Part shown: positions 3,443-63,600 of the stretch, in pieces
How positions within the stretch are numbered: position 1 is the first letter of the stretch
Layout: each line of letters opens with the position of its first letter
DNA from: Brachycybe producta
Lineage: Eukaryota > Arthropoda > Diplopoda > Playtdesmida > Andrognathidae
Assembly (NCBI GenBank): GCA_036925085.1
Contig: JAUPFP010000046.1
Span: forward strand, 565,501 to 629,500
Direction of reading: 5' to 3'
Length of the DNA: 64,000 nucleotides
The notes under the pieces: generated by a model
What the model was told of the DNA's origin: nothing
Database searches by the model: none
Seen by the model: only the letters and a program-made list of their open reading frames with translations
Program-made: the position numbers and the translations under genes

Positions 3443-6400
3443 GTACGTTTTGATGTTGCATTTCCTTAAAATGATTGTATTTAGAGGCTAAACAAGACTT
3501 TTATTTGTATTTATTCGTTCGCCGCCGCCGCCTCTTTTTATCATCGACCCCCTTTCCCCTCTTAGAGGGGGGGAGGTTCAGTGACCGCATTCAAAAGCCT
3601 CAATTAAAAACAAAGATGGCGCGCGAAATGACGTCAAATCAACTTAAAACCTTCATCTCTAAATCATTTTATGCTTTTCTCAGCTTTAATTTATCCTAAA
3701 TCATATCAATTTTAGTTATTTTCATGAAAAATCGTCAAAAAATTTTCATTTTTATATATAAAAAAATAAGAAAAATAGAATGAGGTCGTTTTGTTTCTGT
3801 GATTCGTCGCTACGTGGCGTTACCGTCGCCGTTGGCTTTTTTCTTTCTGTCTCTTGATGTCAATGGCACCCACTCCAATGTTAATCAAATAGGGAATAGA
3901 TGGAGAGGGAGAGCGAGACAAACTCCTGAGCGTAAATCAATGTTTTATCAGCAGTTAGTTGACCTCAATTCTAGTTTTTATCACAAACACAAGTCACACA
4001 TTACATAGATAGATAGAATATTATTACAAGAGACGAGTCTTCTGATTAAAACTGACCTCTCAACGTGTTTATAATAAATAAAACACACTGGTCAATAGAG
4101 TGGAGTACAGCTGCTGCTATTAATATACTAAAAGAACGAGTTCAAGGATGAGCCCTTGAACCCTATGACCCCCTTTTTTTCTACTCATCCTCTCTCTCTC
4201 TCTCTCTCTCCCTTGGAAAAACCACGTGAAGAAGCTGAAAAAAAATACTTGATAGAAAAAAAAAATGCGCGCGCGCATGCGTATTTCTTATTGGCTGTTT
4301 GAGAAATTTAACTGTTCAGCGATTGGTTAATGGTGGTTTTAAAGTTTAAACGGCATTTATAAAACTTCTGTCTTTCTGAATAATATACCTTGTACACAAC
4401 ACATGAGTTAAATGAATTCAAATTAAATGTGTTTAGGTGATTTATACGGAATCCAGTTAAGGACATGAACACCAAATAAATTAATAATTATTAATATTTT
4501 CAAAATTAAAATACTAAATCAATATTTAATGTCAATAGTTTATATATTTTAAGTTAATTAACTCAATATTTTCAGATTATTAACTGAATAAATTGAATTC
4601 GACATATTGTTTGTTTGCCCTTCACGGGGCTCTGTAGAACACGTTTATTGCATTTAAATGCATTTAAATTATCAGGTGAGAACTAGGTATAAGAAAATTA
4701 AGAGAAACTAGAAAGTGTTTTAGAAACTAGAAGGGTAGCTTATTCACTTAAGAGAGTATTTTCTTGTTTGATATGATTTAAATTAATTAATGCATTTAAA
4801 TAATAACCGTGTTCTACAGAGCCCCGTGAAGGACAAGCAACTAATATGTCGAATTCAATTGAATTCAGTTAATCTGAAAATATTGAGTTAATTAACTTAA
4901 ACATATAAACTATTGACATTAAATATTGATTTAGTATTTTAATTTTGAAAATATTAGTAATAAAGTCAATTTTTTATTTGGTTCATCTGTCCTTAACTGG
5001 ATTCCGTAATAATTCACACCTAAACACATTTAATTTGAATTCATTTAACTCATGTGTGAGTACAAGGTATTAAGGTGACTGAGCTACCCTTCTAGTTTCT
5101 AAAATACTTTCTATCTTAAGTTGAGAAATGAGTTGAAAACTGAGCTGATCATAATAATAATAATGGTGAATGACGTCATTCGAAGAGAGAGAGAGAGCAC
5201 GTGATAACAGTTTCTCCTCAAGGTGCGGCCCGCGAGCCACTCTTATCAAATGATGAAATGTCAATGTGCCGCCCTTTTAATATTAATAACCTTGAGCTTA
5301 TTTTTGATTGGCTTCAAATATTATCTGAGACTATAAACTTAAAATATATACAATCTGTCAACAACCCCTTTTCAAACGCAGATTTATCACTCGTTTTTAT
5401 ACGGCATATTATATATCCGATAATAAATCTCTGGGTGGATTAAAGCTGAGCCGTTCATTAGGTCGAGTGACGCGACGCGACGCGGAGGAAAAACGGGCCC
5501 CACAAACAAAATGCATGTAAATAAATGGAGCCCCTTCTCCATTAGGAGCGGAAAAGTGCGGCACCGCTCTGAAAAAAAGTATGGAAGTTCTTTAAAGCTG
5601 AGCGTCAACTCGGTCGGTAACGCTCCATGGTGCGTCACCGACCTAGTGGATACAGGCAATTAGAAATCGGGACATACAGAAGTTAGCTCCACCCTTTTTT
5701 ATGACGACTGGCAACTTCTAATTGGTTGGTTATGTAGTCTGACGTCACATGCTCTCCGCCCCTTTTCAACGTGGAACCACACAATAAACCAATTAGAAGT
5801 TGTCGGTCGTCATAAAAAGGGCGGAGCCAACTTCTGTTTGTCCCGATTTCTAATTGCCTGTTGTTCTAGTGGATTGATCACTCTTTAAAAGAGAGAGAGG
5901 ATTTAAATCTTATCCCCTTTTTGTGGATTAAAATCCAGAGTTTACATTTCAAGAAGAAATAAGAGGAAAAAAAAAAAAATGGCGATTGTACGGAGCCTTG
6001 TAAAGGACAGGCGTGTTTTTTTTTAAATCTCGACATTTCTACTTTTAATCTCTCTTATTCGGCCATGTTGAGCGTAACATACTCTAATAATTAAATATTT
6101 GCAAGCGCCCTCTTGTAGCAGCAATAATTTAGTTATTAGAATATGGTGCGCACAACATGTCATAATTAACATGGCGGAATAAAAGACAGGCAGTTAGAAA
6201 TCGGTCAGAACTTTAGTTGGCTCCGGCCTTTTTATGACGACTGGCAACTTCTAATTGGTTTGTTATGTAGTCTGACGTCACATGCTCCGTGCTTTTCAAC
6301 GTGAGACTACATAACCAGCCAATTAGAAGTTGCTAGTCGTCATAACAGGGCGGAGCCAACTGAAGTTCTGACCGATTTCTAACTGCCTGTGAATAAAAGA

Positions 6401-9400
6401 TAAGTCGACATGTAGAAATTTTAAACAAACGTGGCATGTCCTTTACAGGGCTCCGTACGGAATGAACAAAACGGCCTTGAAATTATCAAGGCTCCGCCCT
6501 CCCAGTTTACACAAGTGAAATAATAATAGATCAAAATTAACATTGGCCTTGGATCCCGATCTCCATATGGTTTTTTCTAAGCCCAATTCATATGCAAATG
6601 AGGAGGAGCCTCTCTCTCTCTCTCTCTCTCTCATTTGTTTGTTTAACTGGTCTAAGTAATCACTCAGAGAGAAATGGAAAAGCCATTGACCGATTACGCC
6701 GCTGTGAGGCGCTGCTAACAGTCAACCACATTACAATCTACAATGCGGGCGCTTTTGGCGTGATGATTTTTTGTTTTGATATAAATCTGATTAATTATCA
6801 ATCAATCAGATAAGATCGAAGCAAATGTTTCTCAATCTATGGCCCTCAAAGAGCCAATTGTGAATATAAATCATCATCAATCACTAACTTGCTTTTTTTA
6901 ATAAAAAAAACACTGGTTAGAGGCTAGAACTCTGGTTGGCAACTTGTAGTAAGCCTCTAAACAACCTTTTTTTTATTAGAAAAAACATAATTGCAGTTGT
7001 TTTTTTTAATGATGATTATACTTGGACAATTGGGCCAATAAATGGGCTCTAATAATAAATATAATTACGATTTTCTCTTAATTACTTTGACATTAAAATA
7101 AGGTTAAAGAATAGATATGTTACTTGTCAATCTGCAGATTGCCTAGGCAATCTGTAAAACTACTATATTGCTAGTGAATCTGCAAAATTCAATACATTTT
7201 AGGTGTTTGAATTTTGGCACATTTACTAACAGGTTGGTTGTTTTGTGGATTGCCTAGGCAATCTGCAGATTGACAAGTAACATTATCTAATTTTTGGTTG
7301 TGTTTTTATTTATTTTTTCTATAGGAAGCACCGGTGGAGACATTGATGACTTCAATGACCAATCAAACTCAGTGGGTAAGGAGAACAGAATTAAATTAAT
7401 TAACTTTTAATTGAATTATGAAATTTTTCCCTTTAAAAAAACCCCCCTCTGATTCTGTTTACTTCAAAAACGATATTATAATTATTAATAAATTGGAAAA
7501 TAATTACAATTTGATTCATTTTTGAGAGATATTTTGTGAAGTGTGTGGGCGGAGCCTAATAAATGTCAATCATTTCTTGCTCTGACCACGCCCCTCTTTC
7601 ACAGTCTTAATTATTACATAACTGAATTTGGTAAAAGAAACTTCTTTTTTTCCCATGAAACAAACTTAAATGTTTGTCAGACGCTAGGTGGCGTTGTAAT
7701 CGGATCCGCACTCTAATGATGAGTTTTGTAAGTAAGGAGAGGGGGGGGGGGGTGGTTGGGTGGCAGGTGGGTGGATTCTGTTAACATTTTTCGAGGTCGT
7801 TCATTTTTTATTTAAACAAACAAAAAAAGGGCGAGTTTTTTTCTTCTTTCTATTTGTATGAATGCAAGTTGTCGTGTAGGTGGCGCTGCGATAGATGTTT
7901 TCTTTTATTTTTTTTTCAAAGAAGAAGGTTGTTTTTTCTTTCCGTCCGGTTTATTCAATTTGTGATACATCACAGGACCCTCCCCCCCCCCCCCATTTAT
8001 CTCCACCTGTGATTTTTTTCACCCCCTCCCCCCCTTCTTCCTATTAATGTAATAATAAGGACCCCACTTTAAAAGGGAGTGGAAGGAGCCATCTGGTGGC
8101 CATTCTTCCCCCTCGTTGATTTCACTACTGACCCAATTTTCATTCTTGTCAACCCCTTTACTTTTAACCTTGAATAAGTCGAATTTCAAGGTTGTGCGAC
8201 TCTATAGAAAGAAAGAAAAAATTAACATAAAAAAGGGCCCCAAAATCTCCTGATAAAATATCAATTAGTGCGCATGCGCAGAACGCACATGCAATTAAAT
8301 TTGGGGCTTTTTTTAACACATAAGTAGAGATTTTTTAGTTTTTTTTAGCATCTTTTTTGGTGGCGCAAAATGAAGAGAAACTGAAAAGGTTGTTTTACAA
8401 ACTAGAAGGGTCACCTGAAGATTATTTTCATGTTTTCTTTCAAAAATCCAATTTTAATTAGACTATTTTTTATTTTTTGTTTATAAACGTTTATTTTAAA
8501 CGATATTAAGAAATTTTTTTGTCAAAAATGACAAAAATGAATGTGCTTTAGAAACTAGAAGAGTAACTGAACCACTTAATGGTATTTTTACCATTAAGTG
8601 ATTCAGTTACTCTTCTAGTTTCTAAAGCACATTCATTTTTGTTCTTCTAAAAGAGAAGAATAATCAAAGACTTCCGAAAACTAGTTGTTCCTAAACATGA
8701 GATAAACCAACAATTGATAGAAAAGATAGTTCATTATTGCCGCCAGGTGGCGATCTTGTTGTGTGGTCACGTGATAATGGCGGTACACTGAATACACAAC
8801 ATAAAAGAGTTGAGTTTGAGAACCTTTTTTTTTATTACAAGGTGGAGGAGACAGGCAGTTAGAAATCGGGAAGAACTTCAGTTGGCTCCGCCCTTGTTAT
8901 GACGACTGGCAACTTCTAATTGGTTTGTTGTGTGGTTCGACGTTGAAAAGGGGCGGAGCATGTGACGGCAAACTACATAACCAACCAATTAGAAGTTGCC
9001 AGTCGTCATAACAAGGGCGGAGCCAACTGAAGTTCTCTCCGATTTCTAACTGCCTGTGGTGGAGGAGGGGGCGCCATTTAAAAATGTGTTCATCACATTT
9101 TCAGGGAGGAGAGGGTTGTGGGCCTTTTTAGTGTATTGTGACGTGTCCTTATAATATGAATCATCACATTTTGAACTTGGTTCGGTGCCAATTCGGTTCG
9201 CTTCACTCATTTGAAGGGACCTTAGGGTGGATGGAGAAAGAGGAGGAGCAGCGGCTCCACTTTGTTACTGGAAATAAATCAACAGCAAACTTTTTTCAAC
9301 TCAAAACCGAAATTATGTTGAAAATTTGGCTGAATTTTTAAAGTTTCTAACCTTTTATGGATTTTTTTTAAGTGTTCAATTATCTTTTCTCTCATTGGTC

Positions 9401-12400: not shown

Positions 12401-15081
12401 AGAATCGATTCAAAAAAAAATGGTTGCCAACAAAAGAATCGATTCAAAAAAAAATGGCTGCCCACAAAAGAAGCGATTCAAAAAAATGGCTGCCAACAAA
12501 AGCAATTAAAAAAAATGGTTGCCAACAAGAGAAGCAATTAAAAAAAATGGTTGCCAACAAAAGAAGCGATTAAAAAAAATGGTTGCCAACAAAAGAATCG
12601 ATTCAAAAAAATGGCTGCCCACAAAAGAATCGATTCAAAAAAATGGCTGCCCGCAAAAGAATCGATTCATGAAAATGGCTGCCCACAAAAGAAGCGATTC
12701 AAAAAAATGGCTGCCAACAAAAGAAGCGATTCAAAAAAATGGCTGCCCGCAAAAGAATCGATTCAAAAAAATGGCTGCCAACAAAAGAAGCGATTCAAAA
12801 AAATGGCTGCCAACAAAAGAAGCGATTCAAAAAAATGGTTGCCCACAAAAGAAGCGATTAAAAAAAATGGTTGCCAACAAAAGAAGCGATTCAAAAAAAA
12901 TGGTTGCCAACAAAAGAAGCGATTCAAAAAAATGGTTGCCAACAAAAGAATCGATTCAAAAAAATGGCTGCCCGCAAAAGAATCGATTCATGAAAATGGC
13001 TGCCCACAAAAGAATCGATTCAAAAAATGGCTGCCAACAAAAGAAGCGATTCAAAAAAATGGCTGCCAACAAAAGCAATTAAAAAAAATGGTTGCCAACA
13101 AAAGAAGCAATTAAAAAAAATGGTTGCCAACAAAAGAATCGATTCAAAAAAATGGCTGCCCGCAAAAGAATCGATTCATGAAAATGGCTGCCCACAAAAG
13201 AATCGATTCATGAAAATGGCTGCCAACAAAAGAAGCAATTAAAAAAAATAGTTGCCAACAAAAGAAGCGATTCAAAAAAATGGTTGCCCACAAAAGAATC
13301 GATCTTTTAAAAGATCAATAAAAAATCGGTATGCCTATTTTACAGTTCTCTCTACATTGTAAAGAGAGCTGAAATACGGCTTCTAGCCTCTATGTGTGCC
13401 TCAACAAAATATTCAAAATAAGCTTTTTTTATTGAAAAAAAACTAGAAGAGTAAAAAAAAGTTATATTTGGGATTTTAATAAAAAAATACCTTTCAAAAT
13501 AAGCTTTTTATATTAATTTTTGATTGTCAAAACTTCAATAAAAAGTTTTATTTTTTTTAAAGACAATGAAAATATCCCACATGAAACTTGATTTCCTTTT
13601 TCTAGTTTCAAATATATTTTAAAATTCTAAATATTAAATAATAAAACATTTTCCTCCTCAAGTAAAATACTCCACCCCCTCCCCTATGTCCATTAAATTT
13701 TATTATTATCAATTTATTAGGTAAATTTGGACATCGCCAAATAAGATTTTGACCCTGAAACATGTTAACAAGAGAAAAAGGGTGTTAAGTAGTCAACTTC
13801 CGGTCTCATTTCCGTTACTTCGTAATATTAAATTGCTAGTCATAAAAAAAGGGTTGAAAATTTACACAAAAAAACGGACTCAGTGAACAACAACAAAAAA
13901 AAAGTGTCGCTTCAGGGTTTTATTTTAAGGCGGTGGTGACCTTGAAGAGAGGAGATAAACCGCCTTTCAAAGGATCGTAAGTGGGTTTGAATCATAGAGG
14001 GCGCTGTCTTCTTTTTTTGGCACGTGCGCGCCAACCATAATTGAAATCCGCCCACTCAGCGAGAGAGAGAGAGAGAAATGCCAAGAACTCCACCCCATTT
14101 TTTCGCTCTCACTCTTTGGATTGATGACCTCTCTAGTCTATAAATGTGTTTTTTTACCTTCAGAAGAAAAAGGAAGGAAAAAAAACCCCAGGCATTTTGC
14201 GAATACACTAGTCAGTTTGCGAAACTACATTTAATACCATAGGCATAAACAATTTCATGTGGTAAGTGATTTTATAGATTGGCTTGTTGGTAAATAGCCA
14301 TTCTACACATTGCCTAAAAATCCAGAAAAAAAACCCAGGCATTTTGCAAATACACTAGTCAGTTTGCGAAACTACATTTAATTCCATAGGCAATTTCATG
14401 TGGCTACACATAAGTGACATTTTCTAGATTGGCTTGTTGGTTCATTAGCCATTCTACACATTGCCTAAAGATTTAATACCGAAATTGCTGCGGTTTTTTT
14501 GTTAATCAAAAGATTGTCTTGGAGGCTAGAAGTTAACCATGAGTTGACCAGATTTTAGCCTCTAAAGCATTGAAAATCCTGGCTTAAAATAAAGTTAAGC
14601 TTAAAAGTTTAGCTTTGTTTAATTTTCATTTTGCGTATAAGCGCATTGTCATGAGCAGCTGATTTTTGAATTTAAAAAGTGTGTTAGAAACTAGAAGGGT
14701 AACCTCTGAATTTAATCATCTTTCAAACGTTTTTTGATGATCGATATCTTTCAAAATAAACTTTTTTGAAGAAAAATATCTCTTTACTTTAAAAAAAAGT
14801 ATTTTAAAAGATATCAACGTGAAAAATACAACTGATATGTGATTTTGAGCTACCCTTCTAGTTTATAAACGGAGAGAGTTCGAGCTGCGTTTACACTCTC
14901 CATTTAAGGAATAATGGCCGTTAGTGATTCTTCAAAATGACTGATTTTTTTTCACTTTGACTTATAAGGTAAATTATACAAAACAAAAATAAGAAAAAAA
15001 GCTCAAAATGAGACATATTTTGGCAGATTGCCAATTTAAAAACCCAACCAAGGTCTATGTAACCTTAGTCATTGTCATCCC

Positions 15082-15114
<33 letters not shown>

Positions 15115-18100
15115 CTACAAAAAACATGACGCAACCAAACCACTAATAATAATATTTCAAAACGTGTATTTTAAAAAATAACTGTTTCAAAATTCACTTT
15201 TTTCTTTCTTTCCAAATTGTAGTTATTTAAACGCCTTTCTGGGTCCATTTCGAGAGGGTCTTATTATTATTAAAATGGGACCCCCCCCCCCCCTTTCCTC
15301 CTCTGTTGTGTCGAATTTCACAGGCAGTTAGAAATCGGGGAGAACTTCAGTTGGCTCCGCCCTTGTTATGACGAACGGCAACTTATAATTGGTTGGTTAT
15401 GTAGTCTGACGTCACATACTCCGCCCCTTTTCAACGTCGAACCACACAACAAACCAATTACCAGTTGAAATTTTCACCGAGTAAAATTTTTCACCACAGT
15501 GGAAACAAGGCCTTAAAACGACTAAAATAAACGAATTAATAAAAAAATTGATGCATGTCCTGAAAGGAGCTCCGTAGAGACCTGAGTTGAACTACCTCTA
15601 TATATGTTTGAAAGTAACTTCTGAAGCAAATAAGTTGAACTTCACACAGGTGCAAATATTTCAGAATCGAATTTATCTTCTTTTTTTTTCTGCACTTGGG
15701 TTTTAACCTTGAGTTTTTAGCAACTGAAATTTTTTTTGTAAACTTCTTTCTCTCTTTCTGTGTATTTTGTATGAGTTTCAGTCTCTCAAGGTTGTTTTAT
15801 TATTATTCGTGTATTAAACACACACTTCAACAAACAAGACATTAAATTTATATGAAAAGAGAGAGAAAAAAAGAGATTAATTTCTCTCTTTTTCATATCT
15901 TTTTTTTTCCATTTCATTTCATTTATTTTCTCTCTCTCTCTCTCTCTCTGCTCCTTTCACTTCAGGTGATTCTTCTTCTTTTCAGGTGATTGATTAGTTT
16001 ATTGACACAATTGAGGTCAATAGTCGCAGCAGCCATTTTTGTTCAACCTAACAACAGTGGGTCACTGGGTCAACCCCCCCTTTTTCCATCTCTGAAATCC
16101 ACACTTGGAAGACCTTTCAAGAGTGGAAAAAACACAGGTAGTTAGAAATAGGGGAGAACTTCAGTTGGCTCCGCCCTTGTTATGACGACCGGCAACTTCT
16201 AATTGGCTGGTTATGTAGCCTGACGTTGAAAAGGGCGGAGCATGTGACGTCAGACTACATAACCAACCAATTAGAAGTTGCCGGTCGTCATAAAAAGGGC
16301 GGAGCCAACTGAAGTTCTCCCCTATTTCTAACTACCTGTGTCAAAATAACCTTAATTCTGCATTTCATAAGAGCAAAACACAGAAGAAATTGAAAGTGTT
16401 TTAGAAACTAGAAGGGTAAAAATGAAATTAAACTGGTTTTAAAATCTCGGAAGTCTTGTATATTATGTGTATTTCAAAAGAACAAAATTGAGAAAAGAAA
16501 AAGTGATTTAGAAACTAGAAGGGTAAATCACTTAAACTAGGTTGGTTTTCATGTTGATATATTTCAAAATAAGCTTTTTTTGTGTTAGTTTATTATTGCA
16601 AAGGACAGGAAATTTCAAAGTTTTTAAACATTATATCAGAAAAAACAAGAACTTATGAACCGATTCATTTTACTCTTCTAGTTCTTAAGAACATTTTCAT
16701 ATTTTTGATATCTTTCAAAATAAGCTTTATATGTAAACAATTCAAACTGACATAAAAAGCTTATTTTGAAAGATATCAATCATTGAAAATACAGGTCTTT
16801 AAATGATTGAGCTACTAAACTACCCTTCTAGTTTCTAAAACACTTTCTAGTTTCTCTTAACGTTTCTCTTGAAGAACAGAAATAACCAGAATTTCAAAAA
16901 CCACCTTAAAATAAATTAAAAAGTGTTTTAGAAACTAGAAGGGTTACTAAATCATCTTTAAATCATCCTTAAATGATATATAACTACCCTTCTAGTTTCT
17001 AAAACACTTTCTAGTTTCTTTCTTCTCTGAAAAAGACACAGAATAAACGAGGTTTTTTTGTTCTATTTTCATTGGTTCTTTTTTTGCATATTTTTTTCTA
17101 AATTAAGTTTTAGCCTAACAGACCTTAAAAATGGTTGAAAATATCACCGTCTATTTTTGGATTATTCAAAGCCAATGATCCCCACATATCTTGTTTCCCC
17201 CTCCCCTTCCCCTCCCCCTCCCTTAGGGCACTTAATCCCCTTCTTAGCCCTTTCAACCACACCCCCCTTATGGTGGTTCTTGTGACGTCAACAATCTTGA
17301 AATCGAGAGAAATGTTTGATGTATTTTTCCAATTCTATCAATTTTTTTTTTAACTTTTCCCACTGAAATAGTTTAAAATGAAATATCTCCATAGGACACA
17401 ATTAAAGGGAGTTGCCTTTTAGTTAATATTATTTCAACATCCAATTATGTGTTGTTGTAGCGTGTTAAATCTAATATGTTCGTGTTTCATCTTCATTTAA
17501 TTAACATCCTAACTAATAAATTATTTAATTAAATAGAAAAATCCCCCAAAAAACCATTTTTTTTTCTGAATAATTTCATAATTTCAGTCATTATTCCGGC
17601 AACAATAAGAATGAGATCCTGGTTCACACATACGTAAAAAAAAAGACCAGAAAAGTCGAAATAGATAATTTAAAAAATCCAAAATAGTTTCAGGTTTTAT
17701 TTCTGCTTTCTGTCGCGTACAACATTACAGCAGAAAACATTTCAAGGTCCCGTTTGTCTTTATTTATAAAAAATAAAGAGGAGGAGCCATAAAGAATGAT
17801 GGGTATTAAAGGACGCCTTTCTATTGGCTGATAGAATGTAATTCTGCTTGGCAGAATTCACTTTTTCTGCCAGACTTTTCAGCCAAATTGAGTGGAATTA
17901 TTCAGATTTAGATAAAAATTCCTTTTTCAGTTGACTTTTTCTGCATGTGTGTCACCTTTACTGTGACTGATTTTTCAATCAGTCATTCTGTAAAATCACT
18001 TGTCATTTTGCAGAACCACCAATTTGTTTTAGTCAATTTGCAGAATTCTTTTTATGACATTTTTGTTGCATTTTAGAGGGGTTGATGATAAAAGTGAAAG

Positions 18101-21100
18101 CACCCTCTAGCGGTGGGGAAAAAAAAATCACATTTTGTTTTGAGTGACAGAACCTTGTTAGAGGATAGAATTCAGAGAGAGAACTTGAACAAGTCTTATA
18201 CCTCTTGTACTCACACATGAGTTAAATGAATTCAAATTAAATGTGTTTAGGTGTGAATTATACGGAATCCAGTTAAGGACACGAACCAAATAAAAATTAA
18301 CTTTCTTATTAATATTTTAAATTGAAATTTACTAAATCAATATTTTGTCAATAGTTTATATATTATTATTTAAGTATTAACTCAATATTTTGAGATTATT
18401 AAATGAATAAATTGAATTCAACATATTGTTTGTTTGTCCTTCACGGGGCTCTGTAGAACACGTTTATTATTTAAATGCATTTAAATTATCAGCTGTGTGT
18501 TGTACTAGGTATTATTCAGTATTAACTGAAACACAAAATGTAATTTTATTTTTGAAGTTTGCTGAATAAAGTGAGTGCGCCCTCTAGCGGTGGTAGTAAT
18601 GTGAGCTGAAAGAGGATTAGAAAAGGGGGGGGGGAGCACAAATCCTATCTTAAAATTCTAAAAAGAGATTTTTCAGTTTGGAATTCACTTGGATTTCATC
18701 CAGAAAAACCGTTTTTCTTCTTTTTTGTAAATAAAAATTACAAACTTGACTTTGAGAAAAATTTTCGGAATATTTTTGTTGTAAAATTCCAATTAAAAAA
18801 CTGAGAACAAGTTCAATGTCTACAATTTTCAACACAATTTCAAAGTGTAGGTCAATTTTTTCTCTCTAACTGACCTACTAATGGAGAGAGAGAGAGAGAG
18901 ATCGAGAGGGGGGCTTCTCAAAAAGGCCCCCTCGTCCCACTGAGAGATAAGACTAGAAGGGTCACTGGACTTCACCTCATAAAGATAGATAGAGAAAGAG
19001 AGAGGTCAGTGACATACTTTTTAATAATAACAACAACAACAACTAACAAAATGGGAAACATGAAAAATAAAACCATCCTAATTGTGATAAGTAGGTTAAT
19101 TAATAGGTAAGTTCTTCTTCTTCTTCCGAGTGGACCAAATGTGAACCGAAATTTCGTCCCTTTTTTTTAGTGTATTATTTTTGACCCACATTTGTACATT
19201 TTTTTTTTGTATTATTCGAACTCATTTTCAGTGTCAGTGTCAAATACACAAAAAAAATGTTATAAATTATACAATAGTTTAAATTATAAATAGGACACAG
19301 CGGTTATTTGAGAAAAAACAAAACGAATTCCACATAATTATTGTGTGGTTTCCGGAAATCCGGAAATATAAAACATAATTTCAACTAGAAATTATAATTA
19401 AAATGAAAGAATCGTCGTATTTCTGAATCGATTCATTCGATGTGACACGTTTACTCTTCTAGTTTTTTAAACACTTTTTTTAATTTCTTGTTAAGATGGT
19501 TTTTTTTATAAAGTGTAAAAATGGCGTCGCCTCTCGAACTCGTGATTATTTTTCTGTCTTTCAGGGTGCAAAAATGAAGAGAAACTTGAATATGTTTTAA
19601 GAAACTAGAAAGGGTAACTCAATCACTTATAGGTGTTTTCATGGTTGATATCTTTCAAAATAAACTTTTTATGTCAGTTTGAAAACGAACCAACTTTAGG
19701 TCAGTATTTATAAAAAGCTTATTTTGAGCTTAAGTGATTGCACTACCCTTCTAGTTTTTAAAACATTTAAGTTTTTTCTTCATTTTGTACTTGAAAAGAT
19801 AAAAAAAACCATCTTAAGGTGGTTTTAAATTTATAAACTAGAAGGGTAGTTCAATCACTTTAAACGGTTTTTTCATTGTAAGTTTAAAATAATCTTTTAA
19901 AATAAACTTTTTTCATTGTAAGTTTAAGATAATCTTTTAAAATCAACTTTTTTCATTGTAAGTTTAAGATAATCTTTTAAAATCAACTTTTTTCATTGTA
20001 AGTTTAAGATAATCTTTTAAAATAAACTTTTTTCATTAAAAACAATGAAAAAAGTTTATTTTAAAAGATTATCTTAAACTTACAATGCAAAAAGTTTAGT
20101 TTCTAAAACGTTTATTTTGAAAGATATCAACAACATGAATGAAAATACTATTAAGTGATTGAGCTTATTTACTCTTCTAGTTTTTTTCTCTCCCCATTTT
20201 GCATCTGTTTAGAAAGAACCTTAAAGGTTCAAGTTCAAAGTTTCTCTTTCTTGAATTTAGACCTTAATTGAGAGAATGAAAGAGAGATTTTCTCTTTCTC
20301 TCTGTCTATCCCACCCACATTGACTTTAAATGTCATGTTTTCTTCTTTCAATTGATTAGGTTTTTCTATTATGAACGTGAAAATCCAATCAACCTGATTT
20401 CTAGTTCACCTTGAACAGGTATAAACACCCTCCCTCCCCCCACCCCTTTACCAACTTAATCTCTTGTCTTATCGAAAAGATAGAAAGAGAGAGAAAGTTA
20501 TTAGTGGTTAGAAGGTTTGGTGGGCCAACTAGGGCCACCAAATGGGCCACACACATCTAACAAAAATAAGTTTGGCTTCAAATTTTAAAACAAAACTATT
20601 TCTGGTGTTGAGAACTCCAAGGTTGAAATTAAACTTAAAAAGAGACAATTATTCAATTAATTTCTTTTTTTTTTTCTGCTGGAAAAAACTGAAAACAGAA
20701 AACTTTTTGTGTTTCTTCCATTTTAAACTTTTTTTTACCTTGAGATTTTTCAAAGGGAGTTTTTTTTTCCGGATTAGAGTTAAAATAACTGCAAAAGATA
20801 AGAATAGCGAAAAATGCAGGCGATTTTTCTTTTTTTCCACTTTATAAAAATTATTCTAAGGCCGGGTGCAAATTAGGGAATCAAATGCAGCGGTGGCGCT
20901 AGTGTAGTGTTACCAGCAAACATCGGGGAGAACTTCAGTTGGCTCCGTCCTTGTTATGACGAACGGCAACTTCTAATTGGTTTTTGTTGTGTGGTTCGAC
21001 GTTGAAAAGGGCGGAGCATGTGACGTCAGACTACATATCCAACCAATTAGAAGTTGCCGGTCGTCATAAAAAAGGGCGGAGCCAACTGAAGTTTTCACCT

Positions 21101-24100: not shown

Positions 24101-25555
24101 TATAAATGTGCAACAAGAAGAAGAAGAAAAATGCCGAATGATTCGTCATGGCGTGACCAGAGGGCGTGACGATAATTATTACATTACAACAATGTAATAA
24201 CAATAACAACCAAGAATGCGTTAGATCGTGATATGACGTCATCAGTTACTACAGGACTGGTTCTCATATAATAAAGGAAATGCAAGGTTACCCTTTTTCT
24301 CTCAACTGCGCATGTGTACTGAATACCAATCGGAAGTCACTTCGACAACCTGCATATGCAGCGCATGCGCAGCAGAATGCTCCCCCCCTCTTTGCATTAC
24401 TTTTACTTTAAAATGTAGATGGCGCCACTTAAACTCAATTTTTCAGGTGTAAAATCTTAGAAACTAGAAGAGTAACTCAATCTCTTAAAGTGTCTTATTT
24501 TTCATATTGATATCGTTCAAAATAAGCTTTTTATGCTTTATTTTGAAATATATCAACATGGAAATACCCTTCTAGTTTCTAAAACACATTCAAATTTCTC
24601 ATAATTTTGCTTCAGAAATGGAATATGAGTATCGTATGATAGTCATATCTAGGCTCAGAACTTTCTAACAGTCACAAAATCAATTTATGACACATACTGA
24701 CATATGACTGCCATTCTTCCAGTGTACAACTTAATTATGACAAGTCCTAAAAATAATAGCGTATAAGCAATGGCATCATAAGGTATGACTGTCACAATTT
24801 TATGACTTTTTTTTCGTATTGAGACGGCCAACTGTTCATCATTTCTACTATTGTAGTGTGAACTGGGCCTAATGATTGATTTTTGTGTGGCTCGCGTGCC
24901 ACTCGCATTTCTCTCTTTCCATCTATCATAATCTCATATCTCTTATGATAGAATTTAAGAGAAGCGATAACAAGTGTCAATAATACCACAGAATGAGTGA
25001 AAGAAAAGACATTGAATTTTAAATGATAACAAGCCATAAATAAACACATTCACATATTTTTATCACAGGACAGTCACACTTTTTTTTTTTAAGTTGAGAA
25101 ATGTAAACAAGTTTAAATAGAGGGGCACGGGCCCCCTCTTATATTAAACTTATGGACAACAAAATAACTCATTGTTGTATAATAAGAAGAGTGAAAAAAG
25201 TAGCACAAAGATTTCAACAGGCAGTTAGAAATCGGGGAGAACTACAGTTGGCTCCGCCCTTGTTATGACGATCGGCAACTTCTAATTGGTTTGTTGTATG
25301 GTTCGACGTTGAAAAGGGGCGGAGCATGTGACGTCAGACTACATAACAAACCAATTAGAAGTTTCCGGTCGTCATAACAAGGGCGGAGCCAACTGTAGTT
25401 CATCCCGATTTCTAACTGCCTGTAACATTTCACTTTTCAAACAAAAGAAAAACGACTCATCATAAGGTTGTTGTAATGAGAGTCATTTGACTAAAAATGG
25501 CCCACCCACACACCATTTTATGTTATTTGCCCTCCTTTCTCGCTCTCTCTTTCTG

Positions 25556-25593
<38 letters not shown>

Positions 25594-28594: not shown

Positions 28595-28626
<32 letters not shown>

Positions 28627-46600: not shown

Positions 46601-49600
46601 TGCTCCACTTTTTTTTATAACACCGTAAAAGAAACAAATTTAAAAGTTTATTAAAAACTAGAAGTGACCCATTTACTTATCTTTCAAACTAAAACATTTT
46701 ATGGCAATTTTGATATTTTCTAACTGTAATTAAATCGTGTATTTTGAATGATAATGTCAATGTTACTATTTCTCTAACTCTTCTAGTTTTTAATAAACTT
46801 TGAATTTTTCTTTCCACTTCACTTCAAGATTACTCCGATCAAAATCGCTGTTTTATAATAAATTATGACCATTACTCTTCTAATTTTTAAATTTTACATC
46901 AAAATGGCTTCTTTATATAATAAATTATGGCCATATTGCTCTTCTAGTTTTTAAGTTTTGCGGTTTTTGTTGTTTGTTTTAGGAAGTGTGATCTTGGACA
47001 ACAACAACGGTGGTGGTTTGACCACAATGTCTTCGTCCGTTTCACCTCATTCTCCATTGACCATTCAACCGGACGCCATGTTGAGTTCCTCGTCATCCTC
47101 CAACAACGCCGGTGGTGGCGCCACCTACAATCCACGAAGCAATGGTGGCGCTGATTCCAACTCTCCGAATGGAATTCAACAATCTCCTTACATTGGTCAC
47201 AGTGGTTATGTGTCACCTAGCTCACCAGTGACTCAGAGGACCCCTCAATATCCACCTAACCACCCCTTAAGTGGCTCCAAACACTTGTGTTCCATCTGTG
47301 GAGACAGGGCATCTGGAAAACACTACGGTGTATACAGGTAAACAGCGCCCTCTACCTCTCAATGTCTCCTCGAACACACATTCCACCTCCCCACCCCCAG
47401 AAATCATTCAAAATGGCCTTGAATTAAATACACACAAAAGAGATAAAAGAAAGTTCTCTGTTAAATACTAGAAATGCCCTTGAGTCTTCCTCCCTCTTTA
47501 CCCCTTTGGAGCAATTTCTCGCTCTTTTCGTGACCAATGAATACACTTTCTGAAAAATTCCACAAAAAAAATATGGATTTTTTTTACAGTCGCCGCAAGT
47601 GTAAACTTCAAACTTTATGACGTCAAAGGAGAAGGGGTTGACCCAAAAGTTCCTTTTTTATTATGAAAAAAGGAAATTTATAGAATAAAGTTCTCAACAA
47701 GTTTGAAATACAAAAGAGGTTTTTCTTAGGCCTTGTTTCCATTGAGGCAAAAATTATAACTTTTTGAAAATTTCAACTGGTGAAAAAATAGATGAAACGT
47801 GGCCTATGTTAGTGAATGGGCGGACCGGGGCCTGGTTTCTTCTACTTTTCACCAGTTGAAATTTTCAAAAAGTTATAAGTTTCACCTAAATTGAAACAAG
47901 GCTTTAAAGTACTTTTTCAATCAGACAAACATAACTTTTTGGTCAACCCTCTCCCCCTCTTCTGACGTCATAGTTCTAAAATGAGGCGAATATAAATTTA
48001 CCTTTGCCGAAAATTCTGCCTAGAAAAGCCCATTTTGAGCTGAAAAACAGGTTTAATTGGTTGGTTGGGGGGGGGGGGGCGGAGCTCAAATTCAATAAAG
48101 GAGAAACTTTTAAGTTCATCTTGAAGCCTCTCTCTCGAGGTGCCTTTCAATCATGAAATTTTAAGCTTAAATTGTTTTTAGCTGATTTTTGATTCTCTCT
48201 CTCAATTTTACCCGTCTAGTTTCTAAAAAAAAACACTTTTTTAAAGATGAAATTTAAAAGTTTTTATTTTAGAAACTAGAAGAGTAAATTTTGAAGGACT
48301 TCAATCAAAAATATGCTGAAATTTGAGGTTAAAATTATCTTTTTTTTGCTTTAATAATGAGAATTTTGGGTTTAAACTCTTTTTTCAAGAAAACACTTGA
48401 TAAAAATAAATCCCCCCCCCCCCAACAGTCTTCCCCTTAAATCCCCTTCCTCTACCCCCCCCCCCCCCCCACACACACACACACCTTGATCCCTCTTATT
48501 TTGACCCACTTTCTGTTCAAATCTCGATCAAACTCGAAGTTTGTCCTAAATTTCAGTTTTTAGGTTTTTTTTTTCTCCTAATATTAAATTAATAAATAAG
48601 CGAAAACAAAGCCCTTTCTTTTATTAGGGGTGAAAGGGGAGAAGGGGAGAGTGCAAACAATAAGAAAATGCGGAAGTTTGACTAAGAGGGGAGGGGGGGA
48701 GGAGGAGGGGACAAAACTAGTTTCAGTGGTGGCGCTCAAATCATCTTTTATATTAGAAAATGGGGAGAAAATGACATAAGAAAGGGGTTAGAGAAGGGGG
48801 GGGGGGGTAGGGGTTGCATATGGTTGTAAAGAAGTAGGTCAAGGTAGTAGTTTCTGAACAGGGATTCAAAATTCAACATTATTGGAGCACCTCCCCCTCA
48901 TTTATATTAAAGATGAACCCTCCCTCCAGAGAAAGGAAACAATTTCGAAAAGTAACTAGCCATTTTGCAAAACCACTAATAAGGCATTGGTAGTCAATTC
49001 TGCACACTGGCTAATGTATTTTAGACAAAAATGCCGAAAAGCAACAAGTTACTCTAGATACTGTTTAGGCATTTTGCATATTGCCTAAACTATCAAAGAA
49101 ACGAAACATTTTGTAGATTGTCTTGTTTGTTTAGACATTGTGAACATTGTCCTAAAGAGACTTAGGCCCGAAGTAAAAGGCTAAATACCCTACTATAAAC
49201 GCAGCAGTACAGACTGTGTTCTAAGAAAAAAGGGTTGTTTTTCCCCCAAATAAAGTTTATTTTGAAAGATCGAATAATTACCCTTCTAGTTTCTAAGTGT
49301 TCAAATAAAATAATCTTTTAAATTTACGAATTAAGTGTTTTTTTTTTGGTTTCACAGTTGCGAAGGTTGCAAAGGTTTCTTCAAGAGGACGGTTCGAAAG
49401 GACCTTTCTTACGCTTGCCGAGAAGACCGTAATTGTATCATCGACAAGAGGCAAAGGAACCGGTGCCAATACTGCCGTTACCAGAAATGCCTTTCGATGG
49501 GAATGAAACGAGAAGGTGAAGAAACCGTTAAAATTAAGAAGAAACCCTGGGTTTCGGGGAGAGAGGGAGAGCGAGGGATGGGGGAAATGGATGATTCATT

Positions 49601-53930: not shown

Positions 53931-53952
53931 AAACCTTTTATGAGTTAGTATT

Positions 53953-54709: not shown

Positions 54710-55045
54710 TAAGGCTCGGATTTTTATGCAGTATTAAGCCAATGTTTCTCAATCTGTGGCCCAAGTGCCAATTGTGAACTCATCATCATCATCATTATTA
54801 GAGCAATCAACAATTGTTTGTTTTTTTTTCAATCAAAAACACTGGTTTGAGGCTAGAATTCTAGTTGACAACTGATTGTAATCAGATATCTAGCCTCTAA
54901 TCCAGCCTTTTTGATTAGAAAAAAAAAGCATTATTGAAGTTGCCTCAAGACTTTAATGATGATGAGGATGAATTACTTCATAGTTGGCACTTGGGCCACA
55001 CATTGAGAAACATTTGCTTGAAATTACATAAAAATCCGAGCCCTA
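54710..55045. mobile_element. Family E (hAT-like) MITE, best copy
   Basis: Ends TAAGGCTCGGATTTTTATGC and TAAAAATCCGAGCCCTA; perfect 8-bp target duplication GTAATATG at 54702-54709 and 55046-55053. The 8-bp duplication and YARGG-like end are hAT features. Inner GAGGCTAGAATTCTAGTTGA / AGCCTCTAATCCAG palindrome. Confidence 0.82.
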
Positions 55046-55660: not shown

Positions 55661-56340
55661 AACTTGGTCAACTTCTGCTGAAATTGTAATTAATGTTTGT
55701 TGTCATCACAACTAATTAACCTTAAAACTTAAATAAGACAATTAATTTTTAACTCGAATCTTAATTTAACGAGGTTTTAAATACAAAACAAAAAGCAAAC
55801 CAAAAATGCATAATTTTTTTTTCTTCAGAAATTCAACTTTCTAACCTTTTAATTTTAAGGATTAGAAAATTGAAATTCCGAAAACACAAACTTACAAAGT
55901 GAAAAGAAAAAAACCGTTTAACACGAAATATTTTTTTGTCCGCCTTTCGATTTCATCATGTTAATCAATTTTCTATTTTATAAGAGTGAAAACTGTTTTA
56001 ACAATTTTTTTTTAAAGAAAAAAACGGATAACACGAAATATCCTTTTAGGCCTATTCTAGATCACTTGGAATAACAAAATTAACACGAAATTCGTTTTTT
56101 AAACAGTTTTCACGACTTGTATATTTTTGAAAAAAGTAAACTATTTCAAGCTCCATCCATCCATCCAATTAATGTGTTTTCATGTTGTTTGTAAATATTA
56201 TTATGAATATTATTAATTAAGGAAAAGTACCCTTTTTTTTTGGAAAAAAAAGAGGAAAAGGGCCTTTTTGAGTGGTTTTTATATTTCTTTTAATTTAAAC
56301 TTTTAAGAAACTTTTTTGCATTTTTTTGTTGGCTTTAAAA
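55661..56340. other. AT-rich intergenic DNA
   Basis: No gene or clear element seen. TTAACACGAAAT-type motifs recur at 55920, 56030 and 56085. Low-complexity T and A runs dominate. Confidence 0.4.
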
Positions 56341-56344
56341 TGTA

Positions 56345-56600
56345 ATAAAAAGAAATCTAAATGTGTGTTTTAGAAACTAGAAGGGAAGTTCCAATCATTT
56401 AGAGGTAATTTCCTTATTTGATATCTTTCAAAATAAGCTTTTTTTATGACCCAATTTTTAAGCAGAAAATATTTTAAATTTTGTCTAGATCAAAAGTTTA
56501 TTTTGAACGATAATAATCAACATGAAAAATGCATCTTTGACTAATTGATTGATTTACCCTTCTAGTTTCTGAAACTATTTTTCAGTTTCTTTTAATTTTT
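56345..56600. repeat. Family A copy
   Basis: TTAGAAACTAGAAGGGAAGT left, GATTTACCCTTCTAGTTTCT right, inner GATATCTTTCAAAATAAGCT. Confidence 0.7.
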
Positions 56601-57322
56601 TGCCTTTTTTTTAGTTTGAAAATCGGCTGTTTATAAACCATTATTATTAAGCAAAATCGTGAAATTTGAAATTGTATTTTATGTGGACTGTTCAGTTTTT
56701 TTTAATTATGTACAGTTTTGAATGTAAAAAATTTAATATTTGAAAGCAAGAAGAAAAAAAAAATTGGTGAAAAACAAAAGATTTTAAAATTGTTACTTAA
56801 ATTAAAAAGAAGAAAATTTATCAAAAATCTCAAATTTTGTTGAGAGTGAAAAATAAAAAATAAGTGTGTTTTGTACAGTAAATTTTACAATTTTTTTTCT
56901 TTTTGTGAAAAAGAAAAAGAGTGAAAAGAATATCAATGATGTTAGAGAAAATTAATAATTGTTTGTTTTTGTATAGAATTTTAATTATTGGAAAAGAAAA
57001 ATGGGTGAAATTTGTTTCAAAGTGTTGGAGAGAAAGAAAAAAAAAATGAGCGAAAATAACAAAATATCGATATTTTTTAATGTTTTTCATTTTTTTTCCA
57101 CCCTTTTGTTATTTTCTCATCTCAAAAAGGCGTTTGTTCGTAGAAAATTGTATAGAAAAATCACCTCGGGGGGTTTTAATCATTTTGTTGTGTATAATAT
57201 CTTTTCAAAAAGCGTAATTAAAACAAATGTTTAATAAATATTACAATTTGCTTCAATTTCAATTATTATTTCAAAGATAAATTTCTAAAGATAAATCATC
57301 GGAATGTCACTATCATTTGGAT

Positions 57323-57481
57323 ACTAGAGTTTTGTTAGCGCATGCGCATTGGTTTATATTAGGAAAGTGATAGCAAGTGAAACGGCAGTTTCCATTTGTG
57401 ATCAATAGATGGCGCTGCTAACGCAAATCTGCAATCACTTTCTTATATAAACCAATGCGCATGCGCTAACAAAACGCTAGT
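57323..57481. mobile_element. Family F palindromic MITE, copy 2
   Basis: ACTAGAGTTTTGTTAGCGCA to GCGCTAACAAAACGCTAGT. Two GCGCATGCGC-type sites and one AGATGGCGC. No target duplication seen. Confidence 0.72.
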
Positions 57482-57549: not shown

Positions 57550-57655
57550 TTTTTTAAAAAACTGTAATAAGTTTATTTTGAATTAAATGTAAGCTCATAA
57601 CATGAAAATCGCCTGAGCTGCCCTTCTAGTTTCTAACACACCTTTCAAACACACT
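57550..57655. repeat. Family A right half
   Basis: TAAGTTTATTTTGAATTAAA and CTGCCCTTCTAGTTTCTAAC; the left half is missing. Confidence 0.45.
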
Positions 57656-58076: not shown

Positions 58077-58584
58077 ATGAAATGCATTTTTAAACCCGTT
58101 TCCGGAACAAATTAAGAACGAAAAAACTACTTAACTGACATGTCAAATTACGAACTTCTCCAGTAAAAAGATGACATAGATGTGTGTGTTGTCTTTCGCT
58201 CTCTATTGGTCCGCATTTAAGCGTAAAACCTTTCCAGTACCTGAAATGCACACGCGGTTAACGCGAGCACAAAACAAAAAAACGATGGGACGAAATCAAA
58301 CCTGAAAATATCCACCCACCCACTACTTTTCTTCAAACTACGAACTTTTCAATTCAGTCCATTTGAAAAATTCGTTCCTTCAAAAATGACACCAAAAAAA
58401 AATTGACCCATTCAAACTGTTATAAACAACTAATGGCCCTTTAATTTGCCAAAAGTAATCAATTAATGTGATTAAAATTACTTCTTAAAAGTAATTAACT
58501 ACATTAATTATGAAACTTCTTAATTTACTAATTTTAAATTAACTTTAAGCTGTGTTTTTGAATTGCAACTTCAATTGTTCCATC

Positions 58585-58890
58585 TTTCAAAGTGCAAAAA
58601 TGAAGAGAAACTTGAATGTTTTAGAAACTAGAAAACGGGTAACTCATTTATTTCAATTTAATTTAATGTTTGGTATCTTTCAAAATAAACTTTTTATGTA
58701 ACTTTGAAAATTAATCAAACTAAGCTGACAATATTTGTTTAAATTTTAGTCTAGAAAAAGCTTATTTTGAAAGATGTATCAACATGAAAAAACTTTATTC
58801 TTAAGTGATTGCGCTACTCTTCTAGTTTCTAAAACACATTTTTCAAGTTTGTCATCATTTTTTTTTTTTTTGCACCTGAAAGTTCAGGAT
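58585..58890. repeat. Family A copy, near full length
   Basis: GTGCAAAAATGAAGAGAAAC terminus; arm TTAGAAACTAGAAAACGGGT; right arm GCTACTCTTCTAGTTTCTAA; terminus TTTGCACCTGAAAG. Confidence 0.72.
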
Positions 58891-59410
58891 TAATCACAAG
58901 TTCAAGCTGCGTTTTTACAACTTAAAACTACAAAACTATTAATTTTAGCCTCTAACCAGTTGTTTTTTTAGATTAAAAACTAATTGTGGTTGTCCCTAAT
59001 TTCGCCTTACTTATTAGTAAACAAACAAATTATGAAGTTAAATAAAACTGAGCAATAACTGGTTAGAGGTTAGAATTAATAGTTTAGAGGCTAATGACAT
59101 TAAAAAAAGTTTGCAATTAAAAACACTGTTCAGAGGCTACAATTTTCCACCACGTCATCATCCCTTAACCAAGAGTTCTCCTAGATTTTAGCCTCTAAGC
59201 AAGTCCTATTTTATTGCAGAAAAAACTTTGCCTTGTTTATAAAATTAACAATGGTTGGTTAGAGGCTAAAATTCTTTTATAGTTGACAGGAGAACTAAAG
59301 CTTTTAACAAGCCTTAGTTAATAAAATTAAATAAGGTGGAAAAAATTGCACTTTTTTCGATAAAAAAAACTGTTTCGAGGCTAGAGTTGTCCCATAGTCA
59401 AGAGTACTCT

Positions 59411-60521: not shown

Positions 60522-60679
60522 TTAGATTCTGACACTTCCGGAACAGATTCCAGCGTAAGTCGCATCGTCGAGCGGAACGTATTTACCATTGTTAAGATAA
60601 TAAAGTTTACCGTTCTGACAACATGATGCAGGATCGAAACCATCCTTCTGCAAGTCGATCTTTTTCAGCTTAAACGTAC
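60522..60679 (-). CDS. SLC27A: FATP exon i (C-terminus and stop)
   Basis: Encodes [40 protein letters not shown] and SGSVRI, stop TAA at 60524-60522. Lys in TFKLKK aligns with the Lys region of human GTYKFQKTELRKEGFDP. The preceding 78-nt intron (60680-60757) stays open in frame; see findings. Confidence 0.93.
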
Positions 60680-63600
60680 CTAAAAGATAACGAGAAAGAA
60701 CGAGACGAGAAATTATCGCCACGGAAATTCCAAGAAGGAGGAGGAGATTGAACCGACCAGTCATCGGAATGGAATCTAAAATGCGGACGAAAAGAGGTCG
60801 AGCGTACATCGGAAGGCACTTCTGGAAACCGAGGGCCAAATCGTTCAGATTCAAAGAGTGTTCTTCGTCCAATATGGCTGCCATTCCGGCTCGTCCTTCA
60901 GAACCTTTTTAAAGTTTTTAAAAAATAAACAAAAATTTCGTCTTTTAAATTTCTTCAAAGCAGATATTTTATTTTGAAAAATGTGCAAATGAAGGAAACA
61001 TAATTCAATTTGAACTTTTTTTGTTCATTCCTTTAAAAAACATTTAAAAAGAAATTGTGTTTTAGAAACTAGAAGAGTTGCTCAAAGTTTATTTTAAAAT
61101 TAACATTAAAATATATTTAAGTGATTAAGCGACCCTTCTAGTTTCTAAAACACTTTCCATTTCTACTCTTATGGTTTTTTATAAATAGCTGATTTGTGTT
61201 TCATAAAAGGAACAACACTAAGAAGAAATTGAAAGCGTGTTTTAGAAACTAGAAAAGTAATATTAATCTATGAAGGCGCAAAATGAAGAGAAACCTGAAC
61301 GTGTTTTAATAATTTTCAAACTAACATAAAAAGTTTATTTTGAAAGATATCAACATGAAAAGTGACTGAAATACCCATTCTAGTTTCTAAAACACTTTCC
61401 GGTTTCTCTTCATTTTGCTCTTTGAAAAATAAGTGACGCATTTACTTTTCTAGTTTTTAAAATACTTTCAATTTCTTTTAGTAAAACATTGTTTTTGTCT
61501 CTGAAAAGACGAAGAGCGAATCTTGAAAAATACAAACCGGGAACTTCGACGCCGTAAACAACAGAATCTTTGAGACCAGCGATGTTACTTATAACACCTT
61601 CAACTTCAGCCGTCGAAACGTTTTCTCCTTTCCACCTGAAAGTGTCTCCGCGTCGATCAACGAAATACAAATAACCGTAATTATCCATAACGAGAACGTC
61701 ACCTAATTTATCGAAAACGCCACATTTCAAACTTACGAACAATTCAGTTTATTATAAGGAACAAACCAGACAAGAAACATTCGTCTCCTTTCGAGAAAAC
61801 ATCCGTCACGACCTTTTTCTGAGTTGCCGATTTGTTGACGTAGCCATCGAAAGCTCTCACGGGATTATTCCGAGCGATTTTTCCGACAAATTCACCCGGT
61901 TCTCCCGGTTTACACTTGACACATAACCCTTTCGAGTTACGTTCGACTTCACCGGTCTCGTCCACTTTGATTAAAGTGCACGGATAAGCGAAAGGAGCAA
62001 TACGAGACACGAATCCGATGGCTCCGATCTTGTTTTCCGTGTTCACTGAAAACAAAAATCAAAAAGCGGTTTAAAATTAAAGACCCTTCTAGCCTCGACA
62101 AACAAAGGAGGTTAGAAAAAAAGAACAAACGTATGTTTGCGTTTCCTTCTGTCGCTCCGTAAAGTTCTCCCATCTGTTTGACTCCGAACCGATCTAGAAA
62201 CGCCTGCCAGTTCTGAGGCCTCAATCCATTTCCGAACATCATTCGGACCGAATGTAATTTGTCCTGAGGTTTTTCCGGTTGAGATAACAAATAACGACAG
62301 ATCTCACCGATGTACTGAGAAACCTTTATTTTTAACGATAAAAAAAAGGAAAAACAAAACTTCCAAAATGAAATAACGAACTCGTAAAAAATGGTTTACG
62401 AATAGCTGCTTATTTTGCAGTTGCAGACACGTGTTTTAAAAACTAGAACGGGTTAGTGGATCCACTTAGAAGTATTTTATATTTTGAAATATGTCAACAT
62501 GACCGTTTCTAGTTTCTAACACTTCCATTTTGTGCCTTATTAAGTAGAAATTTAACGTATTTTTAGAAACTAGAAGAGTATTTTCATCATTTTAATGTCG
62601 TAATTTTTAAAAATAAACTTTATAAACTTTAAAAACTACAACAATAAAAATACTCTTCTAGTTTCTAAAATACATTCAATATCCACTTACTAAGGCGTAA
62701 ATTAAAGTGTTAGAAACTAGGGAACGGTCAGGTCATATGTTGATATCTTTCAAAATAAACTTTTTCTAGACAAAATGTTTTTAAAAATATCGTTTGCCAT
62801 AAAAAGTTTATTTTGAAAGATATCAAATTTATAACTCTTCTAGTTTCTAAAACACTGTATATAATTTTCGTTAATTTTGCTCTTCTGAAAGACAGAAATC
62901 TAACCTAAAACAAAATTAAATAGAAACTAGAAGGGTAACTTAATCACTTTGAGCAATTTTCATATTTTGGTATCTTTCAAAATCTACTTTTTCCCCGGAA
63001 AAATTTCAAATTCACAATTAAAAAACTTATAAAAGGTTTATTTTGAAAAATACCAATAAGAAAAAAAAAAAGGATATTCTTAATTATTACTCTTCCAGTT
63101 TATAAAAGTGTATTTACAATCTGTAAAAAGAACAAGAAAAGTTCAAATTAAACCGCTTACGGTGCATTTATATTTAATGCAATCGTCCCAGAATTTGCTG
63201 GCCGAAAACTTCCGCCTGATTGCGACCGTGTTTCCAAAGAGAATCGCCTGTCCGATCCCTAAGATTCCGCCAGCGGAATGATAAAGTGGAAGAGGATCGT
63301 AAAGAACGTCGCCGTCAACTATCTTGAAGAAACATCGGACTCCACCAGCCATAAATATATATCTGAAAAATTCAATTTATAATTAGTAATTAGCCTCGGG
63401 AAGAGGCTAATTGAGAAATAACAACAAAAAAAACCTCAAGTGAGTTATGACGGCCGCTTTTGGAAGTCCCGTCGTTCCAGATGTGTAAATAAGAACCAAC
63501 CGATCTGAACGGAAAAAACGAAAACAACTTCAATAAACCACTGTTTTAGAAAACTAGAAAGGAAGTTAACCGGTTAATTTGACGTCTAATTTCGGAAGTT

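Follow-up and report, generated by a model that had tools for sequence, protein, structure and literature searches.

Hairpins in and around the RXR and FATP-like genes of Brachycybe producta: probable relics of an old TTAA-bounded foldback transposon family, most likely of Kolobok type

A TTAA followed by a purine-purine start is the mark of Kolobok transposons and sets them apart from piggyBac (PMC9587614). Within this range, the Xenopus T2-MITE family (miniature inverted-repeat transposable elements, MITEs; Xmix and its array form Xstir) is thought to be non-autonomous Kolobok (PMC6004289), and KolobokP comprises relatives that occur as multimers and as solo units in the form of lone terminal repeats (PMC9587614). 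Tetris of Drosophila virilis is a modular foldback element whose arm tandem repeats expand to satellite-like arrays (PMC4079207). Here we compare these systems with a hairpin family in a 64,000-nucleotide stretch of the millipede Brachycybe producta (GenBank assembly GCA_036925085.1, contig JAUPFP010000046.1, C46:565501-629500 in our numbering of the 295-Mb genome; the whole stretch is called the window below), which carries exons of an RXR nuclear receptor and of an AMP-binding, FATP-like protein. With good though not full confidence, we regard these hairpins as the decayed remains of a single old family of foldback DNA transposons, apparently without coding capacity, whose movement depended on a transposase with TTAA as its target, most likely a member of the Kolobok superfamily. 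On this view, the hairpins at RXR and FATP, inside and outside the genes, were left by TTAA-bounded mobile elements and are not features of the genes. The nearest described relatives are the T2-MITEs in habit (PMC6004289) and Tetris in architecture (PMC4079207).

The element is nearly palindromic: two arms, each of approximately 180 to 190 base pairs (bp), surround a short centre. It is bounded by TTAA and starts with GG or GA, and the two-arm copies that we read were 334 to 436 bp long. Copies occur singly, as tandem hairpin arrays and as back-to-back pairs with one common TTAA. In copies read from the genome, the arm extends outward beyond the blocks from which the family was first recognised to its true end. 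The order in type A is TTAA-GGTGGTTTTAAAGTGTAAACGCC, then GATTATTCTGTCTTTCAG, the core TTTTAGAAACTAGAAGGGTA, the inner block ATATCTTTCAAAATAAACTT, the short centre and the inverted arm, while the type B outer end reads TTAA-GATGGTTTATGAACAGCTGATTTTC. Foldback elements are defined by long inverted repeats that make up most of the element and by variable tandem modules. Both properties were found here, as in FB and Tetris, together with the shortness, non-coding nature, terminal inverted repeats and high copy number of a MITE. The non-autonomous foldback DNA element of the original prediction is supported, and it can be narrowed to one that is bounded by TTAA and has ends of Kolobok type.

Like the T2-MITEs, the family targets TTAA, starts with a purine, is present in numerous old copies and has an inner segment amplified to arrays. 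However, T2-MITEs carry AGGRR straight after the TTAA (PMC6004289), whereas the foldback family carries GGTGG or GATGG. Almost the whole foldback element is palindromic, and its likeness to the T2-MITEs lies in the TTAA, the start, the age and the arrays. Multimers and solo units are shared with KolobokP, but in KolobokP an internal part is enclosed by long terminal repeats in direct orientation, in place of inverted arms (PMC9587614). Tetris belongs to another host, and its resemblance to the family is one of architecture (PMC4079207). Foldback relatives of Kolobok offer a plausible path by which a transposon could turn into a hairpin satellite. In the literature searched, neither the core sequence nor that of the type A end had a match, and the family may already have a name in Repbase or Dfam.

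With at most two mismatches, the type A end (TTAA followed by GGTGGTTTTAAAGTGTAAACG) was found at 3,701 places genome-wide (1,899 + 1,802) and the type B end (TTAA followed by GATGGTTTATGAACAGCTGAT) at 2,967 (1,464 + 1,503), with none in the controls; genome counts of such large families are lower bounds. Among 100 listed exact ends of type A (contigs C1 to C7), 62 were preceded by TTAA and a further 27 by TTAA with one change. For type B, where sequence was given for 57 of 100 listed exact ends (C1 to C6), the corresponding figures were 38 and 10, and TTAA stood at 22 of 35 ends in the loci that we read. The upstream 10-mers were distinct in 62 of 62 type A and 37 of 38 type B cases, and the base immediately beyond the TTAA was at background level for both end types. 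Straight after the TTAA come GG in type A and GA in type B, in agreement with the Kolobok terminus rule (5'-RR ... YY-3'). Because TTAA is combined with a purine-purine start, a Kolobok-type origin is preferred over piggyBac.

A piggyBac-type MITE would have been moved at the same TTAA target by the piggyBac transposases that abound in this genome (93 matches, several intact and similar), and the TTAA boundary is indeed common to both. However, piggyBac termini generally start with CC(C), and the genome's own piggyBac ends read CCC (L055, L056 and L059, the three of 12 fetched loci with a TTAA-flanked inverted repeat), in contrast to the GG or GA of the foldback ends. The piggyBac copy in L056 (887-3490, CCCTTTCAGT at its ends) is flanked by the two halves of a foldback copy and is a guest there rather than the source. 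We consider a piggyBac origin unlikely and rank it second behind a Kolobok-type one. Contig C1 carries 63 of the 93 piggyBac matches (a count of rows).

Within the window, the blocks that had first been noticed were recovered far above chance. Allowing at most three mismatches, the facing (core) block had 59 matches, seven of them exact, compared with 0.03 in shuffled sequences, and the inner motif had 47, compared with 0.09; both are real, as claimed. The proposed outer motif was also present (six matches versus 0.07), but it is only a minority form, and the true ends lie further out. A half-arm profile, built from fetched copies, trained partly on window copies and lacking the type B end, detected 73 half-arms covering 7,007 of the 64,000 bases and none on reversed sequences. 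The basic unit is a half-arm of approximately 180 bp. Copies had been described as ranging from full ones to bare hairpins; most half-arms are shortened, and only 4 of the 73 approach the type A outer end (model start of 11 or less), one of them with TTAA, at 38137. Adjacent half-arms faced each other in 26 of 45 pairs. Corresponding figures were 110 of 232 in other loci, mostly picked for the core or for arrays, and 5 of 11 in ten 10-kb stretches, a result that was not significant. Those stretches all came from contig C1 and need not represent the genome. No stop-to-stop frame of at least 70 amino acids lay mainly within half-arms of the window (the longest of 17 frames of at least 50 amino acids had 68), and no longer matching element was seen there in a search limited to the profile and the list of open reading frames. 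The earlier statement that the window holds neither coding sequence nor a matching autonomous element agrees with these results.

Copies are widespread elsewhere. An exact 19-mer occurred 2,320 times genome-wide (1,138 + 1,182) and a 42-base arm with at most three mismatches 2,938 times (1,439 + 1,499), both with no occurrence in the reversed control. The whole-genome search that had been proposed thus speaks against local duplication within the two genes, which we reject. By the profile, the ten C1 stretches held 17 half-arms over 1,876 bp. The window is enriched, with seven exact 19-mers compared with 0.5 expected from the genome density, although the corresponding Poisson probability is too small, as copies cluster. 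As a separate observation, contig C1 (22.2 Mb, 7.5% of the genome) had no exact 27-base type A end among the 100 ends listed; exact 21-base type A ends are present there, and the absence of the 27-base form may reflect subfamilies.

A candidate source of transposase was sought among Pfam domains. PF20700 had 53 matches in the genome and PF09588, which we take to be a lambda-exonuclease-like nuclease, had 27. Both domains shared one stop-free frame of 903 to 1,530 amino acids at 10 places (C107, C259, C49, C134 twice, C119, C385, C148, C3 at 12.70 Mb, and C184). In KolobokE, a transposase is followed by a lambda-exonuclease-like nuclease (PMC9587614), a layout that these 10 frames match, and we infer a link between them and the foldback family. 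The family shares TTAA and the RR start with KolobokE and Kolobok (PMC9587614), but it seems non-coding, and we saw no autonomous element that carries its ends. THAP proteins were rejected as the transposase: by eye, their 106 matches were all more than 5 kb away from the 100 exact 27-mer ends listed. The nearest THAP matches were approximately 10 and 14 kb from ends (C115 and C16), distances that chance could explain.

Several points weigh against a Kolobok-type transposon. Joining the flanks of eight clusters, and comparing them with the loci read only, yielded no empty site that would reveal duplication of the TTAA; in principle, the TTAA could belong to the inverted repeat itself. The type A outer end is missing from most half-arms of the window. 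In the 12 piggyBac loci, foldback ends did not form the termini of any transposase-bearing element. Finally, no paper in the literature searched mentions PF20700 together with Kolobok, and the Pfam name of this domain is "Mutator".

Insertion was old in the main, since the TTAA next to exact ends is conserved to only approximately 86% per base (a decay of approximately 14%) for both end types, small shifts included. The median identity to the consensus was 83% for 318 half-arms with at least 70 aligned bases and 81% for the 57 of the window, while the best 40 scored of 2,408 candidate half-arm matches genome-wide were 87 to 96% identical. The family had been called very active, which describes its past; the decayed TTAA and the 81 to 83% identity of the copies do not fit recent activity.

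The two arms of one hairpin were a median 77% identical (99 pairs), slightly but significantly more than the 75% between loci; minus-strand neighbours of the same direction, mostly array members, were 87% identical (32 pairs). The former comparison implies that arms decay largely independently and that most stems are imperfect. RNA folding of 26 facing pairs gave z scores from -19.1 to +0.8, with 23 of the 26 at -3.6 or lower. By predicted folding, transcripts could thus in principle form the double-stranded stems of the original prediction. Maintained RNA stems are unsupported, given that paired arms are barely more alike than unlinked ones.

The core, in contrast to its surroundings, has been strongly kept. 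In half-arms found by the inner block alone (41 of 66 window and C1-stretch copies used), AAACTAGAA was retained at 0.88 to 1.00 per base, compared with 0.32 to 0.63 for CTCAATCACTT, a few bases on. Half-arms found by the outer part alone (18 of 21 used) gave 0.89 to 1.00 and 0.39 to 0.67, respectively. Copies with fewer than 18 of 32 core matches were dropped, and the core was placed at its best match, so that retention levels are inflated but the contrast is not. A kept core and a window richer in exact copies than the genome would be expected of a hairpin selected by the host, as a regulatory site or RNA stem, and retained in introns. However, selection on the hairpin sits badly with the 77% versus 75% identity of paired and unrelated arms, and most copies lie outside demonstrated introns. 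Furthermore, best-match placement inflates the retention level, and constraint on mobile source copies accounts for the core equally well. We regard host selection as very improbable and prefer constraint on the source copies as the explanation of the kept core.

Four of the loci read (L009, L010, L011 and L044) contained hairpin units in tandem arrays, with periods of approximately 125 to 300 bp. Arrays and the many copies without ends are what a hairpin satellite would leave if it spread by recombination or replication slippage, without a transposase. The sharp TTAA boundary, the distinct flanks and the thousands of dispersed ends, however, make such an origin scarcely credible. Within the window, a tandem array at 19868-20037 represents inner array growth within one copy.

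Two ends on one TTAA (pattern AAACCAYC-TTAA-RRTGGTTT, at most one mismatch) gave 128 plus-strand and 139 minus-strand matches and none in the control. As the pattern is nearly palindromic, this corresponds to at least 139 junction sites genome-wide, one of which lies in the window. Such junctions do exist, but they cannot be said to outnumber chance expectation, which depends on the true number of ends. Random use of TTAA predicts approximately 3 to 8 junctions if only the 6,668 strict ends are counted, which had suggested a clear excess; a recount weakened it. A loose pattern found 25 ends where the strict one found 14 in all loci read (reversed control, 3), and 7 compared with 2 in 164 kb selected without regard to the core (reversed control, 1), i.e., approximately 1.6 to 3.5 times as many. 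The loci read therefore allow 15,000 to 30,000 ends in the genome, which would predict 14 to 162 junctions. Junctions with an inner-arm TTAA (CAAKTTTCTY-TTAA) had 25 + 21 matches compared with 1 + 2 in the control.

We interpret the junctions as the result of insertion into the TTAA of copies already present, aided by later duplication. In the mechanism that we propose, a transposase supplied from elsewhere would have bound the element ends, and perhaps the core too, excised the element and re-inserted it at TTAA, sometimes the TTAA of an existing copy. Such insertion, combined with local duplication, would have produced the arrays, and the hairpins of the window would be decayed remnants of insertions of this kind. 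A more specific and rather doubtful idea is that the transposase favours the TTAA that borders a copy already in place, giving rise to hairpin multimers and arrays by self-targeting, with the core as a putative binding site for both mobility and self-targeting. If this were true, the step from single copy to array would be directly testable.

The original prediction had the family filling the introns of two genes, which holds in part. Fourteen of the 73 half-arms lie within the FATP span and one (besides two core sites) within the RXR span, whereas 53 are located 5' of the first recognisable RXR exon and five lie between the genes. Upstream of that exon, a long 5' intron and intergenic DNA are indistinguishable. 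The ligand-binding part of the receptor was closest to PDB entry 3eyb (RXR), followed by 1xiu (RXR-like protein) and by RXR of vertebrates; ultraspiracle ranked lower. The AMP-binding domain was found in two of five exon translations (E values of 3e-6 and 5e-5), both under the curated cut-off, and the FATP label is that of the original prediction. Table 1 gives the coordinates.

Table 1. Features of the window, in window coordinates (gene bounds are those of open frames)
Position	Strand	Feature	Basis or detail
4694..5116	.	Facing half-arm pair, shortened, wide centre	Profile 4694-4786 +, 5071-5116 -
8352..8682	.	One + half-arm and near-perfect hairpin 8528-8682	54-nucleotide arms, 98% complementary, 4-nucleotide loop
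9703..9857	-	Half-arm near type A outer end	Model 5-175
13440..13519	+	Weak single half-arm	Profile E 3.6e-4
14672..14869	.	Facing pair	Profile; z -10.1
16339..17054	.	Six-half-arm cluster (+++-+-)	Profile, folding
19517..19810	.	Facing pair, left side retains much of type A outer part	Profile, folding
19806..19825	.	Back-to-back junction, two ends on one TTAA	Reads AAACCATCTTAAGGTGGTTT
19780..20207	.	Second element past junction	Inner 40-bp unit x4.2 at 19868-20037
21569..21907	.	Facing pair	Profile, folding
23056..23435	.	Facing pair and one more half-arm	Profile
24423..24623	.	Facing pair	Profile, folding
26063..26474	.	Three half-arms (++-)	Profile
28074..28280	.	Facing pair, predicted stem not above chance	z +0.8
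31599..32080	.	Four weak half-arms (-+--); strong stem 31645-31904	z -15.5
33551..33782	.	Facing pair	Profile; z -1.7
34610..35029	.	Three half-arms (++-)	Profile, folding
36855..36905	+	Single half-arm	Profile
37236..37617	-	Two profile matches flanking other palindromic family (37310-37509); probably one half-arm interrupted by second-family insert	Model 21-121, 106-180
38137..38563	.	Copy with left TTAA outer end, second-family copy inside at 38316-38506	TTAAGGTGG at 38137
40234..40663	.	Four half-arms (+++-)	Profile, folding
45116..45348	.	Facing pair	Profile, folding
46634..46812	.	Facing pair immediately 5' of first recognisable RXR exon	Profile, folding
48208..48287	.	Two diverging core sites (48208, 48269), RXR intron between exons 46955-47341 and 49335 on	
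49244..49296	-	Half-arm, same RXR intron (between exons 46955-47341 and 49335 on)	Core match, profile
56330..56604	.	Facing pair, between genes	Profile, folding
57551..57647	-	Single half-arm, between genes	Profile
58565..58930	.	Facing pair, between genes, type A outer part retained on right	Profile, folding
61009..61520	.	Six half-arms inside FATP exon span	Profile
62398..63107	.	Eight half-arms (+-+-+-+-) inside FATP exon span	Profile
46955..50820	+	RXR nuclear receptor exons	Pfam zf-C4, Hormone_recep
60522..63376	-	AMP-binding (FATP-like) exons	Pfam AMP-binding
5652-5861, 6186-6391, 8851-9058, 15319-15467, 16132-16341, 20919-21117, 25217-25423, 37310-37509, 38316-38506		Second palindromic family	
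10325-11608		Minisatellite, 33-bp unit, 39 copies	97% alike, open in four frames
12185-13303		Minisatellite, 32-bp unit, 35 copies	
28914-29585		Minisatellite, 61-bp unit, 11 copies	

Other repeats share the window with the foldback family. A second palindromic family, with ends like ACAGGCAGTTAGAAATCGGG, has nine copies, one of them inside the foldback copy at 38137-38563 and another probably splitting the half-arm at 37236-37617. Two copies (45357-45506 and 57323-57481) represent yet another palindromic family, whose arms are like GCGCATGCGCATT. The 336-bp palindromic sequence at 54710-55045, TAAGGCTCGGATTTTTATG..., has the 8 bases GTAATATG at both sides and resembles an element flanked by a target duplication of 8 bp; relatives of it are found at 6817-7038 and 27272-27945.

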